Source of the DNA: Oscillospiraceae bacterium
GTDB lineage: Bacteria; Bacillota; Clostridia; Oscillospirales; Oscillospiraceae
Direction of reading: 5' to 3'
Assembly (NCBI GenBank): GCA_902775985.1
Contig: CACYOR010000003.1
Span: 1-44,844, forward strand
Length of the DNA stretch: 44,844 bases
A model generated the notes under the pieces. The model saw only the letters and a list, made by a program, of their open reading frames with translations, searched no databases and was not told where the DNA came from. Shown here in pieces: positions 24,227 through 33,203 of the stretch; position 1 is the first letter of the stretch, and each line of letters opens with the position of its first letter. The position numbers and the translations under genes are program-made.

Positions 24227-24727
24227 TTATTCCGTGTAGTACTGGTCCTCCGCCCATTTGCCGGGATTGGATGCGATGTAGTCCCCAATCTGGCGATAGT
24301 CGGCCTCATTGCGGATGATGTGCTCGTGAAAGGATTTTTGCCACAAAGCGATTCCGGTCTGTTTTGAGGCCCAGCGTTTCATATGACCAATGACCCGGCT
24401 AACCGTAGGGGCGGCTATCAGCCGCCCGGCATCGTCACCATGAATGCATAGGATCAGATGAACGTGATTCGGCATGATTACGTATTTATCCACGGAAATA
24501 TGTGGATAGATCGACGGTATATTGCGAATGGCCTGATCGACGATTTCTCCGTATGGCGTGAGGATGACGGCGATGGGGGTGTCTTGCGGGCGGCTAATAG
24601 CCGCCCCTACGTCAATACGGGACAGGATGCACCGCCGATCATGGGTGCAGACCGTGACGAAATAGGCTCCGGGGCTGGCATAATCGTATTCCGTCAGACG
24701 GATCGGTTTTCGATGGGGATAGTCCAC
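24227..24727 (-). CDS. REP-associated tyrosine transposase (RAYT, IS200-like Y1 domain)
   Basis: RAYTs are single-domain HUH endonucleases related to IS200 transposases that cut REP palindromes. This 166-residue protein has the family start (RLTEYDYASPGAYFVT), the HUH motif MPNHVHLIL with His88 and His90, a WQKSFHEHIIR segment, and the catalytic Tyr144 in ADYRQIGDYIASNP. I place the start at GTG 24727 because GGAGGAG lies six bases upstream; longer versions would overlap the neighbouring gene and lack a site. Two REP-like palindromes lie inside the coding sequence (encoding parts of VGAAISRP and GRLIAAPT) and one lies just upstream. All catalytic residues are present, so it may be active. Confidence 0.88.
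   Translation of the reverse strand: MDYPHRKPIRLTEYDYASPGAYFVTVCTHDRRCILSRIDVGAAISRPQDTPIAVILTPYGEIVDQAIRNIPSIYPHISVDKYVIMPNHVHLILCIHGDDAGRLIAAPTVSRVIGHMKRWASKQTGIALWQKSFHEHIIRNEADYRQIGDYIASNPGKWAEDQYYTE
24405..24427 (+). repeat. REP-like palindrome inside the RAYT gene, copy 1
   Basis: GTAGGGG head followed by arms GGGCGGCT (24409-24416) and AGCCGCCC (24420-24427) with three-base loop ATC. In the RAYT reading frame it encodes about GRLIAAPTV. Confidence 0.8.
24588..24610 (-). repeat. REP-like palindrome inside the RAYT gene, copy 2
   Basis: Same element in the opposite orientation: arms GGGCGGCT (24588-24595) and AGCCGCCC (24599-24606), loop AAT, and the GTAGGGG head read on the minus strand ending at 24610. 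It encodes about DVGAAISRP. Confidence 0.8.
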
Positions 24728-24748
24728 GGCATGCTCCTCCGTTATCCC

Positions 24749-24772
24749 GTAGGGGCGATTCATGAATCGCCC
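24749..24772 (+). repeat. REP-like palindrome upstream of the RAYT gene, copy 3
   Basis: GTAGGGG head and a perfect 20-base palindrome GGGCGATTCATGAATCGCCC (24753-24772). It lies 22 bases before the GTG start of the RAYT gene on the minus strand. Confidence 0.8.
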
Positions 24773-24821
24773 GACTTGGTCAGTATAACACATGTTCAAA
24801 AACAGGTGTTCCTGCGAACTA

Positions 24822-25616
24822 TCATTCTGAAGGAATGTCTTGAGTGAATTTACATTTCGGATAATTGGAGCATCCGTAGAATGCACCATATTTGCCGTTA
24901 CGCAATCGTAATTCGCCTCCGCAATGGGGGCATCTTCTTTGCCGGATTATCATTTCCCTTTCGGAAAATCGCTCTCCGATTGACTGAATATGCTTGGTCT
25001 CATTCTCTTCTCCCGTAAGATTGATTTTACATAGTTTATTGAAAATTATCGAAACTCTGTTGCGCGGTATGATCTCTCGGGTATAATTGAATATTTCTTC
25101 TTCTAATTGGGACATATATACAACGGGTGTTCTCGTATTCACATGCAGCTCACATTCATCTGAAAAAACAACGATTGGCTTAAATGCCCGTATATCTAAA
25201 TTGAGACGTTCTGCTAACGCAAACGTATGTCCCCAGTTTTGCTTTATGGGATTATAAAAATAATGTCCCCTCGATGACTTGAATGTTTGCTTCCACTTTT
25301 TCGCCTTTTCTGACCCGGATATCCATCCACTGTAATTTTTGGTCTCAATAACAAAAATACCGTAAGGCGACACAACGACGTGGTCAAGTTGTGTGGTGTA
25401 TGTCTTAGTTGGATCTTTTATCTGTTCGGACTGGTCAGGTATTATGACATTGTTGATGACGAGGTATTCCTGGGGGAGAGAGTGAAGGATGGACGAGACT
25501 TCACGCTCGCCGGCATCTCCAATGCTGGAAGGAGTTCCTGAATCAATAGCGTTCAGTGTGAGTTTTATGATAAGAAATAGAAAAACCGCAAGAAGAATAA
25601 CGCCTAGTATTGTCAT
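24822..25616 (-). CDS. NERD domain membrane protein with topoisomerase-type zinc ribbon
   Basis: The 264-residue protein has an N-terminal transmembrane helix (about 3-20), a NERD (nuclease-related) domain at about 34-150, and a C-terminal topoisomerase-I-like C4 zinc ribbon. The NERD core shows GE.EV, Asp78, and E91-x-K93 in QLDHVVVSPYGIFVIETKNY, the residues expected of a PD-(D/E)XK-like nuclease fold. The zinc Cys are 229, 232, 249 and 255. A membrane-tethered DNA-acting role is inferred; NERD proteins occur in mobile and defence contexts but no function is proven. Codon use is much more AT-rich than the flanking genes, indicating acquisition. The RAYT lies downstream on the same strand. 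Confidence 0.85.
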   Translation of the reverse strand: MTILGVILLAVFLFLIIKLTLNAIDSGTPSSIGDAGEREVSSILHSLPQEYLVINNVIIPDQSEQIKDPTKTYTTQLDHVVVSPYGIFVIETKNYSGWISGSEKAKKWKQTFKSSRGHYFYNPIKQNWGHTFALAERLNLDIRAFKPIVVFSDECELHVNTRTPVVYMSQLEEEIFNYTREIIPRNRVSIIFNKLCKINLTGEENETKHIQSIGERFSEREMIIRQRRCPHCGGELRLRNGKYGAFYGCSNYPKCKFTQDIPSE

Positions 25617-26688: not shown

Positions 26689-28698
26689 TTATTCGGCCTC
26701 GGCCAGAGCCTTGGCTTCCTCGATGACCTTCTGCTGCACGTTGCCGGGAGCTTCCTCGTAGCGGACAAACTTGCAGGTGAAGGAACCGGAGCCCTGGGTC
26801 ATGGAGCGCAGGTCGATGGTGTAGGTGCTCATCTCAGCCATGGGGACCTCGGCCTCAATGGTGGTCATGCCGTCCTCGGCGGGCATGGAGCCCATCATGG
26901 TGCCGCGGCGCTTGGAGTTGATGTCGCCGATGATGGCGCCCTGATACTCATCGGGGATGGTGACAAAGAGCTGGCCGATGGGCTCCAGGATGGTGGGCTT
27001 GGCCTTGGGGATGCCGTCCTGGTAGGCCAGACGAGCGGCGGTCTGGAAGGCCATATCGTTGGAGTCGACAGGGTGGTAGGAGCCATCGTACAGCGTGGCC
27101 TTCAGGCCGACCAGCGGGTAGCCCGCCAGAACGCCCTTCTGCACCGCGTTGCGCAGACCCTTTTCCACAGAGGGGAAGAAGTTTTTGGGAACGGAGCCGC
27201 CGAAGACTTCCTCGGCGAAGATCATGTCGTCCTGCTCCTCCTGGGGCTCGAAGCGGATCCAGACGTCACCGAACTGACCGGAACCGCCGGACTGCTTCTT
27301 GTGGCGGCCGTGGGCCTCGACGCGGCCCTTGATCTTCTCGCGGTAGGCAACGCGGGCGGGCTTGAGCTCGGTCTCCACGTTGTAGAGGTTCTTCAGCTTG
27401 GAGCAGAGGACGGCGACCTGGATATCGCCCTGGCCGGAGATGACCATCTGGTGAGTCTCGGCGTTGTTGACCAGCGTGAAGGAGATGTCCTCCTCCGCCA
27501 GCTTGGACAGACCGCCGGCGACCTTGTCGTCCTGGCCCTTGGTCTTGGGGGCGATGGCCATGGAGTAGTTGGGTTCGGGGATGTCGATGGCGGGCAGCTC
27601 CACGTCGTCCTTGGAGTCGACCACGGTGTCGCCGGTCTTCCAGTCCATCTTGCCGATGGCCACGATATCGCCGCAGACGGCCTCGTTGACCTCGACGTTC
27701 TTCTTGCCGGTGAAGGTGTACATGCGGCCCAGCTTATCGGTGCTGTTGGCGCGGCTGTTGTGCAGGGACATACCGGCGCTGATGGTGCCGGCCATGACCT
27801 TGATGAAGCTGTACTTGCCGAACTTGTCGGACACGGTCTTGAACACGAAGCCCAGCGCGTCGCCGGCCTTGGCCTCGGGGGCGGGGCAGTAGTCGGCCAC
27901 ACCCTGCAGCATGGCGGCGGTGCCCATGTTGGTCATGCCGTCGGTGGCATAGACGGGAACGACGGAGCGCTCCTTCACGCCGACCTTCAGACCTTCGATG
28001 ATGTCGGCCTCGTCCAGCTCCATGGTCTCGAAGAACTTCTCCATCAGTTCCTCGGTGGCGCCGGCGGCGGCCTCCATCAGCTCGGCCCGCAGCTCTTCCA
28101 CATGATCGGCGTCGGCCGCGGGGACAGCGCCCTTCTCGACCTTGTTGCCCTTGGTGGTGTAGGCCACGTTGTGCACCAGGTCGATGACACCGGTGCCGTC
28201 GGACTTGGGAATGGTGACGGGGCAGACGATGCTGCCGTATTTGCCCTTCAGAGTCTCCAGGGCCTTGAAGTAATCACCGTGCTCCTCGCGGCACTTGGTG
28301 ATGGTGAACATGACAGGCAGGTTGGCGTTCTTCAGATAGTTCCAGCTGCGCTGGGCGCCGACGGCCACGCTCTCGGCGGTGTCCTTGGCGGAGACAGCGA
28401 TCACGCCGGCCTCGACCGCGCGCAGCGCGCACAGCACGTCGCCCACAAAGTCAAAGTAACCGGGGCAGTCCAGAACGTTGATCTTCTTGCCGGCAAACTC
28501 CACGGGCACAACGGCGGTGGAGATGGTGATCTGGCGGGCGATCTCTTCCGCGTCGTAGTCGCAGACGGTGTTGCCGTCGGAGACCTTGCCGAGGCGGTCG
28601 ATGGCGCCGGTCACGTACAGCATGCTCTCGACCAGGCTGGTCTTGCCGCTGTTGCCGTGACCGAGGATGGCGATGTTGCGAATGTTTTTAGTTTCCAT
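26689..28698 (-). CDS. EF-G-like translational GTPase (paralogue with altered G motifs)
   Basis: The 669-residue protein has the five-domain layout of elongation factor G. G1 is GHGNSGKT (13-20), switch I contains ARQITIST, G3 is DCPGYFDF (77-84), and domain IV includes HGRHKKQSGGSGQFGDVWIRFEP. Two deviations are visible. The G3 His needed for GTP hydrolysis in EF-G is Tyr81, and G4, normally NKxD, reads TKCR (134-137). Clostridia often carry such an EF-G-like second gene besides true fusA; its role is unknown, perhaps in ribosome recycling, protection or stress. The ATG at 28698 has AGAGGAAG upstream. A TTGCCA-18-TATAAT promoter precedes it. Confidence 0.85.
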   Translation of the reverse strand: METKNIRNIAILGHGNSGKTSLVESMLYVTGAIDRLGKVSDGNTVCDYDAEEIARQITISTAVVPVEFAGKKINVLDCPGYFDFVGDVLCALRAVEAGVIAVSAKDTAESVAVGAQRSWNYLKNANLPVMFTITKCREEHGDYFKALETLKGKYGSIVCPVTIPKSDGTGVIDLVHNVAYTTKGNKVEKGAVPAADADHVEELRAELMEAAAGATEELMEKFFETMELDEADIIEGLKVGVKERSVVPVYATDGMTNMGTAAMLQGVADYCPAPEAKAGDALGFVFKTVSDKFGKYSFIKVMAGTISAGMSLHNSRANSTDKLGRMYTFTGKKNVEVNEAVCGDIVAIGKMDWKTGDTVVDSKDDVELPAIDIPEPNYSMAIAPKTKGQDDKVAGGLSKLAEEDISFTLVNNAETHQMVISGQGDIQVAVLCSKLKNLYNVETELKPARVAYREKIKGRVEAHGRHKKQSGGSGQFGDVWIRFEPQEEQDDMIFAEEVFGGSVPKNFFPSVEKGLRNAVQKGVLAGYPLVGLKATLYDGSYHPVDSNDMAFQTAARLAYQDGIPKAKPTILEPIGQLFVTIPDEYQGAIIGDINSKRRGTMMGSMPAEDGMTTIEAEVPMAEMSTYTIDLRSMTQGSGSFTCKFVRYEEAPGNVQQKVIEEAKALAEAE

Positions 28699-28768
28699 GT
28701 GTTGCTTCCTCTCTGTCAAATATATAGGCATTAAAAAAGATGGCACAGATACGCAGTATCTCTTTTAG

Positions 28769-29087: not shown

Positions 29088-32000
29088 TCAGAAGCGGAGG
29101 ATCACGCTCACGATCAGCAGCGGGATGAGCCAGAAGAGCCCGTAGAAGAACAGGGCGCCCAGGCCGACGCTGCCGGCGGTGAGAAACTGGATAAACACCA
29201 TGAACACGCCCACCACCGCGGCCAGCAGGCTGATCATGAGGTTGATGCGGATGGCGATGTACAGGCTGCGCCCGGTGTCGGCCATGTGCACCAGCGGGCC
29301 CAGACCCTCCCGGCAGAGGACCGCGGCGATCTTCCGCGGCTCTTTGGATTGAGGCTCGGAGATGGCGAAGCGCTCCACATAGGGCGGGAAGTCGTAGCCG
29401 TCGGTGGCCAGGTCGAAGATATCGTGCAGCATCTCGGGGTTGATGTTGAAGTCCTGCACGGCGAAAACCGGGTGCCGGTTGGAGCGGATCAGACCGATCA
29501 GCGCCTTGCGCACGGTGGGGTTGGCCTCATACTTCATGTTGAAGATGCCGTAGAGCACCCCGTCAATGGCCAGCAGCACCGAGGTCTTGGTCACCAGCCG
29601 GTAGGGGATGCGCACGTTCATCAGGCGCATCAGCTCCGTGCCGCCGCAGAGGACGGTCTGTCCGTCGATGGTGGCCTTCATGCCGCCGCCCGGGAGAAAT
29701 TCAAAGTTCTCCACCTGGCGCATGGCGCAGCCGTTGCGCTGCATGAGATCGGCAAAGCAGGAGCCGAGACCCGCGCCGGAGGCGGTGATCATCGTGCCCG
29801 CGTAGGCGATGATGCGCTCGGAGGGCACGTCCGCGAAGATGCGGATGGAGTCGATGTCCACGCTGCCCTCGGGGAAGAGATCCCGGTCGGTGACGATGAG
29901 GTTGTTGCTGCTGCCCACGTCGCACAGGCCGGACCAGCCGGCGATGGCCGCACCGCTGGGGAAGATGCGGTTGGCGCCCACAAAGAAGGGCAGCGCGTAG
30001 CACAGCAGCGCCGTGACCGGCGTGGCCGGGGCCAGAACGGCGGTAAAGACATAGAGAAAGTCGCCGGCGCTCTTCTTGGCCAGAACGACGATCAAACTCA
30101 TCAGGAAGGCCAGGACCAGCAGCAGAGGCGAGGCCCGGTTGTAGGCCGTCTCGTCGGGAGGCGCCTCCTCGCTGCGGCGGACAAAGCCGATCACCGGCCG
30201 GAGAGACTTGATGAGGGTGACGGTGCGGCCGCCCTTCTCGCTCTCGGCGGTGACGCTGTAGGCCTGCTTGCCGATGGCGGGCACGCGCAGGGACTTGCGC
30301 AGGCCCCGGGCGCTCAGCAGCGCCGAGCACAGCACGCCCAGCAGGGACATGCTGCTGAGGGCGCAGAGGGGCATATGGGGCTGGCCGAAGCCGTCCAGCA
30401 GCACGGCCAGGGCGTCGAGGCTGGTCAGAACGCAGCTCAGGGCTGCCAGGGAATCCGCGCCGAAGCGGGCCCGGGCCAGATTGATGGCGGAGCCGGTGAT
30501 CACATCCAGGCTCAGCAGCATGATGCCCAGCTGCAGCGCCAGACACATGCCGGCGGCCACCTGGATGGAGCGCAGCGCGCCGGTGACGGGCAGGCCCAGG
30601 GAGATATAGGACAGAATGAGCCAGAGCACCAGCGCGATGCGGAAGCGCAGGCGCAGGGACTGGACAAAGGAGCCGTAGTAGCGGGAGGCGGCCGCGGGCT
30701 TGAGCTCGGGTCCCAGCTCCTCTTCCTCGGTCTCCATGGTCTCGGCGCTCTCGCTGCCGGCGACGCCGCGCAGGCGCAGCCACAGCCCGGTCACCAGACC
30801 CAGCAGATAGTCGCCAAAGCTGGGGAAGGCGTTGGGATCGGCCTCCTCCTCGCTCTCATAATCCTCGTCCGGGGCGTAGGCGGCGGGATAGGCGGCCGTG
30901 TCGTCCAGCGCGTCGCCGCGCGGGGCCTCGGCCTTCTTCGCTTTTTTCTTGCCTCCGGCCTTCTTTTTCCCGAAGGGCAGCGCGCTCAGCAGGGCTTTCG
31001 CTCCGGCGGGGCTCTTCTTCTTTGGCGCCGCGTCGGCGGCCTCCTCCGCGGGCAGCTTCGTCTCCTCCGCCGGGGCGGACTGAGGCTTGCCCAGCTCCAT
31101 GGCCTCGCGGGGGAAGCGGATCGCAAAGTCCTCGTCCCGCGGGGCGGGGGCCTTCGCCTCCTCCGGGGCCGGGGCCTTTGCCTCTTCGATCGCCGGCGCG
31201 GCGCTTTCGGCCTTGACCGGCATCTCATCCAGATGCGCGAACAGGGCCCGGGCCTCGTCCTCCATGTGGGAGCGGCGGCCGCGGTGCTCACTCGGCGCCT
31301 CCATCGCTTCAGCTTCGGCGGGCGTCTGAGCTCTCGGCGCCTCCGCGCTTTTGGCGATGGGCGCGCCGAACTCCGCCATGATCTCCTCAAAGGACAGATG
31401 GCCTGCGGCGGACGCCGCACTCTCGCTGCGGCGGCCCTGAAGCGGGCGGATCCCGGCGGGCAGAGCGTCGGCGCTGTTGATATTCCCTTGTTCTTCTGCC
31501 TGCGCCTGGGCGGGCAGATCGTCTCTGTGCGTCATGGGCTGTCGCTTCCCGGCAGCGCGGGGGCGCTCGTCAAACACCGAGCTCTCCAGTTCGCTGCCCA
31601 TTTTGAATTCGTTTACAATGTCCATCCAGTTCCAGCCGCCCTCAACTTCGGGGACCGGCTCTTCCCGGACGGGTGTTCTCGGCCGGGCCGGACGGCTTTC
31701 CTGCCGGCGGCGGGGGCTCTCCCGTTCGCTCTCCCGGCGGCGGGGGCTCTCCCGTTCGCTCTCCCGGCGGCGGGGCGGCTCGCGCTCGCTTTCGCGGCGG
31801 CGGGGCGGCTCCTCCGCGGGCGGATGGGGAACGCCCTTGCTGTCCCAGTAGGCGTGGAGGGCGGCCCGGGCGGAGAGGGGTTCCTCTATCTCAGGGGCCG
31901 GTTCCGTCTCGGGGCCGAGGGCTTCCTCGCCCTCGGGCGGCTCTTCCAGCTCCACGGCCATGGCGTAGCGGTCGGGGCCGCTGTCGGAGCGGTACTCCTC

Positions 32001-32207
32001 CAGGATCTCCCGCAGGGAGACAGAGAAGGGCTGGGGCTTTTCCTCAAAAAAGACCTCGCCCCGTTCGGGGGCGTAGATTTCCCCGGCGCTCTCGCGCTTG
32101 GCGGAGCGGGCGCGGCGCTCGCGGGAATCGGCCTCGCCCGGTGCGCGGGCACTCGGCCTGCGCCGCGGCGGGGGAGAGGACGCGCCTTTCCCGGCTGTCG
32201 TATTCAT
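29088..32207 (-). CDS. Large membrane protein: disordered N-terminus fused to a P-type-ATPase-like region without catalytic motifs
   Basis: The 1,039-residue product has a roughly 470-residue N-terminal half rich in Glu, Ala, Pro and Arg, with tandem RRRESERESP repeats and basic KKKAGGKKKAKK segments, probably disordered and cytoplasmic. The second half has several helices (from FRIALVLWLILSYISLGLPV onward) and a soluble stretch resembling P1B-type ATPases: GCAMRQVENFEFLPGGGMKA and DGQTVLCGGTELM, with VLLAIDGVLYG and two final helices. Where DKTGT should be it reads VTDRDLFPEG, and no TGD or GDGxND is present, so phosphorylation is not expected. Function unknown. ATG 32207 is chosen; TTG 32228 is possible. 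It follows rlmB by 63 bases. Confidence 0.75.
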   Translation of the reverse strand: MNTTAGKGASSPPPRRRPSARAPGEADSRERRARSAKRESAGEIYAPERGEVFFEEKPQPFSVSLREILEEYRSDSGPDRYAMAVELEEPPEGEEALGPETEPAPEIEEPLSARAALHAYWDSKGVPHPPAEEPPRRRESEREPPRRRESERESPRRRESERESPRRRQESRPARPRTPVREEPVPEVEGGWNWMDIVNEFKMGSELESSVFDERPRAAGKRQPMTHRDDLPAQAQAEEQGNINSADALPAGIRPLQGRRSESAASAAGHLSFEEIMAEFGAPIAKSAEAPRAQTPAEAEAMEAPSEHRGRRSHMEDEARALFAHLDEMPVKAESAAPAIEEAKAPAPEEAKAPAPRDEDFAIRFPREAMELGKPQSAPAEETKLPAEEAADAAPKKKSPAGAKALLSALPFGKKKAGGKKKAKKAEAPRGDALDDTAAYPAAYAPDEDYESEEEADPNAFPSFGDYLLGLVTGLWLRLRGVAGSESAETMETEEEELGPELKPAAASRYYGSFVQSLRLRFRIALVLWLILSYISLGLPVTGALRSIQVAAGMCLALQLGIMLLSLDVITGSAINLARARFGADSLAALSCVLTSLDALAVLLDGFGQPHMPLCALSSMSLLGVLCSALLSARGLRKSLRVPAIGKQAYSVTAESEKGGRTVTLIKSLRPVIGFVRRSEEAPPDETAYNRASPLLLVLAFLMSLIVVLAKKSAGDFLYVFTAVLAPATPVTALLCYALPFFVGANRIFPSGAAIAGWSGLCDVGSSNNLIVTDRDLFPEGSVDIDSIRIFADVPSERIIAYAGTMITASGAGLGSCFADLMQRNGCAMRQVENFEFLPGGGMKATIDGQTVLCGGTELMRLMNVRIPYRLVTKTSVLLAIDGVLYGIFNMKYEANPTVRKALIGLIRSNRHPVFAVQDFNINPEMLHDIFDLATDGYDFPPYVERFAISEPQSKEPRKIAAVLCREGLGPLVHMADTGRSLYIAIRINLMISLLAAVVGVFMVFIQFLTAGSVGLGALFFYGLFWLIPLLIVSVILRF
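31693..31811 (-). repeat. 30-base tandem repeat coding for RRRESERESP units
   Basis: Within the large membrane protein gene about three to four copies of a 30-base unit (plus-strand text CTCCCGTTCGCTCTCCCGGC and so on) are arranged head to tail; the last copies toward 31811 have diverged. They encode alternating basic/acidic RRRESERE-type decapeptides. Slippage could change copy number without breaking the frame. Confidence 0.85.
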
Positions 32208-32270
32208 CTTACGATGCCTGCTCAGCAAATGCGCTCACCCACTTTCTGTCTGTCTGCGGGGGACGAATGC

Positions 32271-33029
32271 CTATCCCTTCATGCGCTGCCGCAAAATCTC
32301 ATACATCGTGATCGCCGCGGCGGCGGAGGCGTTGAGGGAACTGAGCTGCCCCTTCATGGGCAGGCTCACGATAAAATCACAGCTCTCCGAGACCAGGCGG
32401 CCCATGCCGTCCCCCTCGGAGCCGATCACCAGCGCCAGAGGGCCGGTGAAATCGGTGTGCCACAGGTCGCTGGAGCCGGTGGCGGCGGTGCCGTAGACCC
32501 AGAGCCCCTTCTCCTTGAGCTCCCGGATCACGGCCGGGAGATTGGGGACGCGGGCGATGGCCATATGCTCGGCCGCGCCGGCGCTGGCCTTGTCCACAAT
32601 GGCGGTGAGCCCGGCGCTGCGGCGCTTGGGGATGATGACCCCGTGGGCCCCGGCGCACTCCGCCGAGCGGATGATGGCGCCCAGGTTGTGCCCGTCGCTG
32701 ATCTCATCGCAGACGATGACAAAGGGGGCCTCCTGCCGCTCCTCGGCGATGGCGAGGATGTCCTCCACCGTGCAGTACTCCCGCACGGCACACACGGCGA
32801 TCACGCCCTGGTGGGCGTGGGTCTGGCTCATGAAGTCCAGCTTGCGCCGGTCGCACTCCACCACCACGATGCCCTTGTCCCGGGCCTTGGAGGCGATATG
32901 CCCCAGGGTCTTGTCCACCTCGCCCTTATTGATAAAGAGCTTGTCGATGGCCCGCCCGGCCCGCAGCGCCTCGATGACGGCGTTGCGCCCTTCGATGATC
33001 TCATTCTGGATGCCGCTTTCTCTCTCCAT
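32271..33029 (-). CDS. rlmB: TrmH/SpoU family 23S rRNA 2'-O-methyltransferase
   Basis: The 252-residue protein has the substrate-binding N-domain (IIEGRNAVIEALRAGR, THAHQGVIAV) and the trefoil-knot SPOUT domain with all three motifs: DEISDGHNLGAIIRSAECAGAHGVI, LALVIGSEGDGMGRLV, and IVSLPMKGQLSSLNASAAAAI. This matches RlmB-type enzymes that methylate the ribose of G2251 in 23S rRNA using S-adenosylmethionine; assignment to RlmB rather than another TrmH subgroup is from overall pattern. I start at the Met 15 codons into the longest frame because relatives begin there and GGAG precedes it. The large membrane protein gene follows downstream. Confidence 0.88.
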   Translation of the reverse strand: MERESGIQNEIIEGRNAVIEALRAGRAIDKLFINKGEVDKTLGHIASKARDKGIVVVECDRRKLDFMSQTHAHQGVIAVCAVREYCTVEDILAIAEERQEAPFVIVCDEISDGHNLGAIIRSAECAGAHGVIIPKRRSAGLTAIVDKASAGAAEHMAIARVPNLPAVIRELKEKGLWVYGTAATGSSDLWHTDFTGPLALVIGSEGDGMGRLVSESCDFIVSLPMKGQLSSLNASAAAAITMYEILRQRMKG

Positions 33030-33203
33030 TGCATAATACTCCAACTTACAAATATACTCATACCAATATATCACAAGCCAGGATAAATGAAAAGCTTAAA
33101 TTTCTGGATTTTTCAAAGAAAAACGGGGCTGAGGGAAAGACGAAGTCCTTCCGTAGAGGCTGGCGTCCTCGACAGCCCGCGCGGGACAAGGAAAAGGAAC
33201 GGA

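Follow-up and report, generated by a model that had tools for sequence, protein, structure and literature searches.

P1B-type ATPases have eight membrane helices. According to the available extracts of two papers, apicomplexan guanylate cyclase carries a P4-ATPase-like domain (PMC6592433, PMC7858053), and the title of the second states that the activity of this ATPase domain is essential. Among the papers listed by searches of the open-licence PMC literature, where subscription papers could be missed, none appeared to describe a family of bacterial P-type pseudoenzymes. Here we describe a gene from a stretch of 44,844 nucleotides (the window) of Oscillospiraceae bacterium (assembly GCA_902775985.1, contig CACYOR010000003.1), whose product combines a core resembling the P1B ATPases with a long N-terminal arm. 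The elements of the gene and its protein are the following.

29088..32207, minus strand: pseudo-P-type ATPase gene, ATG start, 1039 amino acids, stop codon at 29088-29090.
29088..32228, minus strand: the open reading frame of 1046 amino acids that would result from a possible alternative TTG start at 32228.
30798..32207, minus strand: N-terminal disordered arm, residues 1-470, judged by the composition of residues 1-460.
31704..31805, minus strand: 30-bp tandem repeat encoding RRRESERESP, period 30 bp, 3.4 copies.
29091..30695, minus strand: predicted P1B-ATPase-like core, residues 505-1039, with eight membrane helices (AlphaFold2 (AF2), Foldseek, NCBIfam TIGR01525).
30204..30260, minus strand: beta hairpin remaining from the A-domain, residues 650-668, with the TGES half gone (AF2 and alignment).
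30018..30020, minus strand: Pro730, opposite the Pro of the CPC motif in the alignment, both Cys lost.
29865..29894, minus strand: VTDRDLFPEG in place of DKTGTLTEG, residues 772-781.
29673..29690, minus strand: GGGMKA, the kept GxG stretch of the N-domain, residues 840-845, with the His of SEHP lost.
29445..29453, minus strand: D919-F-N921 in place of TGDN, the D being nearly invariant.
29292..29315, minus strand: CREGLGPL, residues 965-972, directly after the site of the deleted GDGxND segment.

The preliminary description of this DNA had recognized pieces of a P-type ATPase in the C-terminal half of the protein and asked for a comparison of the predicted structure with CopA and ZntA. An AF2 model of residues 460-1039, built on an alignment of 68 sequences, reached a predicted local distance difference test score (pLDDT) of 85.5 and a predicted template modelling score (pTM) of 0.81, and has eight long helices of membrane type, the P and the N domain and a two-strand hairpin at the site of the A-domain. 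A scan of the sequence for hydrophobic stretches also gave eight helices. The best match of the model in a Foldseek search of the PDB was CopA (4bbj, E 3.2e-17), followed by ATP7B, HMA4, ZntA and KdpB. A profile search was consistent with this at the level of sequence (HMA4 at 3.6e-8, the copper ATPase 3rfu at 7.7e-6, five distinct sequences at E<=0.01). Thus, instead of an unrelated fold, the predicted core is a P1B-type ATPase fold with eight helices. Family models recognize it at sub-threshold level: the best NCBIfam match was TIGR01525, a heavy-metal ATPase model, covering residues 693-906 with E 3.3e-9 and 36 bits against a cut-off of 346, and P1B models, all sub-threshold, matched up to 16 of the 23 members of family set A2. 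Pfam matched neither the window protein nor any of the 68 family members.

The catalytic motifs are missing from this fold. In a string check, the window protein contained none of DKTGT, TGD, TGE, GDG or SEHP. We aligned 25 rows together with a paralogue from the same genome (L297), in which DKTGT, TGES, TGD and GDGIND are all present; a second paralogue of that genome (L298) also has DKTGT, and its reading frame breaks later. At the DKTGT columns, K, G and the last T occur in no row, the first T in three and the D in five, and the family has x-D-x-[D/E]-[L/I/V/F] instead, of which the VTDRDLFPEG of the window protein, reported earlier and placed here at residue 772, is one instance. The TGES segment is gapped in 24 of the 25 rows, TGEI being aligned in the remaining one (L040). 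The GDGxND segment is gapped in all 25 rows and is therefore deleted rather than mutated, which refines the earlier statement that it is missing. The same statement for TGD holds in part, since the T is kept in 11 rows and the G in none, while the D persists as D-x-N in 24. The CPC columns keep Pro in 21 rows and Cys in a single row at the first position and in none at the second. These losses extend beyond the aligned rows: among 104 unique cores, the window's own included, none contained DKTGT, GDGxx[D/N] or SEHP, so that no homologue with an intact DKTGT was encountered, the case in which this copy might have been merely a decayed gene.

Since the sites of phosphorylation (DKTGT), dephosphorylation (the TGES half) and the hinge and Mg site (GDGxND) are lost, the protein should not pump. 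The alignment makes the loss of pump chemistry a firm reading, and it is almost certain that the protein does not work as a P-type pump. What has been kept would be the eight-helix membrane domain, the folds of the P and N domains and the GxG loop.

This state is conserved over a bacterial order of gut Clostridia, taken to be Oscillospirales. In a first search of 60 genomes (the window's own, 36 of the same genus and 23 from other families), clear homologues (E<=4e-148) were found in 28 of the 36 same-genus genomes, those of G002 and G016 being cut or split. In an order-wide draw, 137 of 147 genomes matched a 23-row profile at E<=4.3e-63, with 24 of 26 families represented; some of these matches are cut by contig ends (e.g. 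G047, G101 and G117). The best matches in the other ten genomes were 1.0e-32 or weaker. This range is overlapped by partial matches to the P and N part (positions about 190-475), which reach 3.1e-37 and which we took as true P-type ATPases, not each one having been checked. In a class-wide draw of 196 genomes, seven matched at E<=1e-45, all from the own order, a threshold that could miss divergent members elsewhere, and the 20 listed of the 189 non-matching genomes all belong to other orders. The named relatives are Candidatus Limivicinus and metagenome-assembled genomes that carry the labels Oscillospiraceae, Ruminococcaceae, Clostridia or Clostridiales; many of the latter have sample names that refer to the rumen or gut.

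The arm preceding the core was described earlier as long and rich in Glu, Arg and Pro, with tandem RRRESERESP repeats, and both features are borne out: residues 1-460 are rich in A, E, P and R, 82% of them are disorder-promoting, and the Uversky hydropathy value H is 0.377 against a boundary of 0.43. Arm length varies among the relatives. Within the arm we found a short peptide with the consensus [S/D]-[L/V/F]-x-[D/E]-I-L-x-E-[F/Y], present in three copies in the window protein.

31992..32015, minus strand: candidate docking-peptide copy 1, LREILEEY, residues 65-72, in the context FSVSLREILEEYRSD.
31605..31628, minus strand: candidate docking-peptide copy 2, WMDIVNEF, residues 194-201.
31368..31391, minus strand: candidate docking-peptide copy 3, FEEIMAEF, residues 273-280.

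These three copies (FSVSLREILEEY, NWMDIVNEF and HLSFEEIMAEF) compare with 0.01 expected from shuffled sequences, and the arms of 40 relatives contain 28 copies against 0.4 expected. A strict pattern applied to the DNA of 41 genomes of the genus gave 83 matches, versus 2 in a reversed control. Nineteen of the 83 lie in arms of the pseudo-ATPase family, some of them assigned by position or by eye. Another 22, from 22 genomes including the window's, end the C-terminal tail of LspA (in L221 the match is two residues further in), and five are fragments with the same end as LspA (L198, L204, L211, L216 and L229). Twelve lie near the N-terminus of membrane proteins with a NAGPA domain and three near that of VanW membrane proteins (L233, L240 and L248, with L240 assigned by its similarity to L233 only). 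Three belong to open reading frames of 175-231 amino acids without a Pfam match, 12 look like chance, and seven were left out of this breakdown. We trained a matrix on 37 peptides of the non-ATPase carriers and tested it on the pseudo-ATPase arms, where it was significant (p<=0.02) in 15 of 19 from the genus and 9 of 19 from other families, two arms being too short. Therefore, the peptide is common to unrelated membrane proteins and not to every member of the pseudo-ATPase family. Its occurrence in LspA, NAGPA-domain and VanW proteins as well as in the arm is new here, and no report of the peptide strings was found in the open-licence PMC literature, where subscription papers could again be missed.

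Some carriers of the peptide deserve a separate mention. LspA (L169; L307, G000:C98) has a disordered tail of about 200 residues with the shared peptide at its end. The NAGPA-domain carriers are L227, L230, L232, L234, L236, L242, L244, L245, L250, L252, L261 and L263. In two proteins from other genera, encoded away from the family locus (L170, G090:C47; L183, G072:C9), the peptide stands at the start and is followed by a disordered stretch and then a membrane helix; by eye, L170 resembles a VanW protein.

Some FtsZ C-terminal peptides of the order resemble the arm peptide, that of the own genome being DPFDSIFKIFNSK. From 30 loci and 33 rows, one row that is not FtsZ (a 421-aa frame of L282) was excluded. 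Of the remaining 32 tails, 13 scored at p<0.05 against their own shuffles, compared to 13 of 200 control termini, and six reached a matrix score of at least 3, compared to one of 200, the FtsZ rows being mutually related in both counts. The test is weak row by row. In the window's genome, the contig with lspA also carries sepF, divIVA and ileS. We regard the resemblance as a lead to SepF-type receptors, not as proof.

Taken together, we favour the view that this is a conserved pseudoenzyme, probably a dead P1B ATPase that serves as membrane scaffold or sensor and that a shared docking peptide would tether to a cytoplasmic partner, possibly at the division site. A scaffold or ligand-sensor role would be the most likely one, close to the membrane sensor or structural protein that the preliminary description had suggested. 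The head may still bind a ligand, such as a nucleotide, a metal or a lipid. The long arm would lie on the cytoplasmic side, where one or several helical copies of the peptide may recruit the protein to a cytoplasmic partner; that the peptide is a docking motif seems rather more probable to us than not. LspA and the envelope proteins of NAGPA and VanW type would be recruited through the same peptide, which would make the partner a common hub for envelope assembly. Whether this hub is a receptor of the FtsZ C-terminal peptide, for example SepF, is a guess, and a partner from the division machinery is a tentative idea. Equally speculative is the wider picture of an envelope-organising system of this order, in which one FtsZ-tail-like peptide connects a common cytoplasmic hub with signal peptidase II, with NAGPA and VanW proteins and with the near-universal pseudo-P-type ATPase; the dead ATPase might act there as ligand sensor or organiser.

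Several observations weigh against this interpretation. The superposition on CopA is loose, with a Foldseek template modelling (TM) score of 0.55 on the query and a root-mean-square deviation of 10.9. The string TGE is present in 46 of the 104 cores; where inspected, it is the VT[G/A]E of the residual hairpin, out of register with TGES, and we rejected it as a remnant of that motif because it is located in a strand of the A-domain remnant. The string TGD occurs in 9 of the 104 cores, which we took as chance occurrences, not individually checked. Some genomes of high completeness also have no clear match to the gene: G030 and G032, of the same genus and 92% complete, lack a clear homologue, and so do five genomes of the order that are at least 90% complete (G063, G099, G126, G140 and G169), the non-match of G063 being possibly due to a contig end. 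Therefore, the gene is not strictly essential. As to the peptide, the strict pattern gave 31 matches across 59 genomes of the order against 11 in the control, far weaker than in the genus; nine of the 31 sit, by position, just before the family core. Four of the 19 genus arms and 10 of the 19 other-family arms had no significant peptide, so not every family member would dock. The own-genome FtsZ tail, taken alone, gave p=0.083 or 0.106 in two runs, and the relatedness of the FtsZ rows counts here as well. Finally, the core still has the acidic x-D-x-[D/E] pair as well as the D of TGD and might thus retain some chemistry on metal or phosphate.

The alternative that survives best concerns the peptide, which might bind the membrane as an amphipathic helix or mark proteins for degradation instead of being a docking site. 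It is indeed a short, amphipathic, helix-like motif and mostly terminal, but it is strongly acidic and is found at N-termini, at C-termini and in the middle of arms, in several copies, and we consider this alternative unlikely.

Somewhat less likely still is that the core is a repurposed HAD-type enzyme or a different active transporter, with a new metal or phosphate site formed by the D of TGD together with the x-D-x-[D/E] pair. The pair, which stands one residue away from the old catalytic Asp position, is well kept, with D in 20 and D/E in 22 of the 25 rows; D774 and D776 are invariant across the 68 sequences. The deletion of GDGxND from every row and the absence of the DKTGT Lys speak against this reading.

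A further explanation, which we find improbable, is that the protein is a non-catalytic partner or dominant regulator of true heavy-metal P-type ATPases and thus an inactive member of a complex. A P1B ATPase with all motifs is encoded in the same genome, and the genus has two more degenerate P1B families; however, the constant neighbour of the gene is rlmB, and no constant ATPase or metal gene was seen, neighbours beyond rlmB, EF-G and the window genes not having been individually annotated.

A decaying P-type ATPase gene can be dismissed, since the lost catalytic motifs and a G016 copy interrupted by a stop and a frame change are outweighed by the retention across the order, by ratios of non-synonymous to synonymous substitution (dN/dS) of 0.055-0.267 for residues 460-1039 (60 pairs computed of 95 eligible), and by distant families, which have these deletions too and a similar motif as replacement: the gene is not decayed. 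The assembly that holds the G016 copy (C167:3046-4792, locus L029) is incomplete, and the copy runs in two frames and contains an internal stop.

The genes flanking the pseudo-ATPase gene are the following.

32271..33074, minus strand: rlmB, the conserved upstream neighbour (TIGR00186, 235.5 bits against a cut-off of 160.15).
26689..28746, minus strand: EF-G-like translational GTPase, a downstream neighbour that is frequent and not constant.

In the window, the end of rlmB and the ATG of the pseudo-ATPase gene are 63 nt apart on the same strand. Among the 104 unique loci, 95 have rlmB upstream in the same orientation and no more than 4 kb from the core, with the arm between them, and where at least 3.5 kb of sequence upstream of the core was present the linkage was found in 88 of 90 loci. 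The exceptions are L032 (genome G037), which is clear, and L074, which runs off the contig; in the remaining seven unlinked loci the sequence ends too soon upstream, one of them, L150, being an excerpt of the window. Counted with duplicates, rlmB is -400 to 1500 nt from the open frame in 119 of 133 loci, with a median of 4 nt. Both the motif loss and the linkage to rlmB, about whose persistence the preliminary description had asked, thus extend over the order. Its statement that the gene is expressed behind rlmB stands as far as gene order goes, and from that order the linkage may reflect co-expression. Apart from rlmB, the flanks vary between loci. EF-G was rejected as a fixed partner, as it is close in many loci and not in all (tblastn). 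Further downstream, the window encodes a NERD nuclease-related domain fused to a topoisomerase-type zinc ribbon (24822-25616, minus strand) and a protein resembling REP-associated tyrosine transposases (24227-24889, minus strand; 66 bits, under the curated cut-off of 80).

Other P1B-like proteins were seen beside this family. A second degenerate one, encoded in the window's genome (G000:C1:187859-189505; locus L306:3857-5506, plus strand; L308-L327), has DKTGV, TED for TGD and no GDGxND; at E<=1e-60 it is matched in 20 of 45 genomes, which all belong to its own genus and include its own genome. In a third P1B-like protein (G000:C1:168690-170660; locus L305:1691-3661, plus strand; L328-L347), GKTGT replaces the motif with an Asp to Gly change, and TGD and GDGFHD are kept; over 20 loci this position reads G, E, T or S in 11 and D in eight and is unreadable in one. 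Its contig also has an EPSP-synthase/murA-type gene, an ftsQ-type gene and ftsZ.

If our interpretation is right, this is a rare prokaryotic P-type pseudoenzyme family, in which the fold would have persisted over a bacterial order despite the loss of its catalytic motifs. The shared terminal peptide would connect the processing of lipoproteins with proteins of the cell wall and perhaps with the division ring, and would offer a direct experimental handle on a hub in common gut bacteria.

Compared with known systems, the family shares with the P1B ATPases (CopA 4bbj/3rfu, ZntA 4umv, HMA4 8q73 and ATP7B) the predicted eight-helix fold, the P and N domains, the Pro of CPC and the GxG loop. It differs from them in lacking DKTGT, TGES, GDGxND, SEHP and the cysteines of CPC, in an A-domain of which only a hairpin is left, and in its long disordered arm. 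Two degenerate P1B types of the same genus (L299 and L300) are alike in being P1B-like, in having lost catalytic residues and in occurring in many species of the genus. However, the L299 type keeps KTG, TGD and often GDG, the position of its catalytic Asp holding G, E, T or S in 11 of 20 loci and D in eight, with one unreadable, and the L300 type has no match at E<=1e-60 in 17 genomes of other families; rlmB is not among the neighbours of these types examined in the window's genome. The FtsZ C-terminal peptide has, in part of the order, a similar phi-D-x-I-phi-x-x-F at the tip of a disordered tail, but mostly Ile or another residue where the arm peptide has Glu before Phe/Tyr. Apicomplexan guanylate cyclase, as far as the extracts of the papers cited above describe it, likewise has a P-type ATPase domain within a signalling membrane protein, but this domain is of the eukaryotic P4 type and has a cyclase appended.

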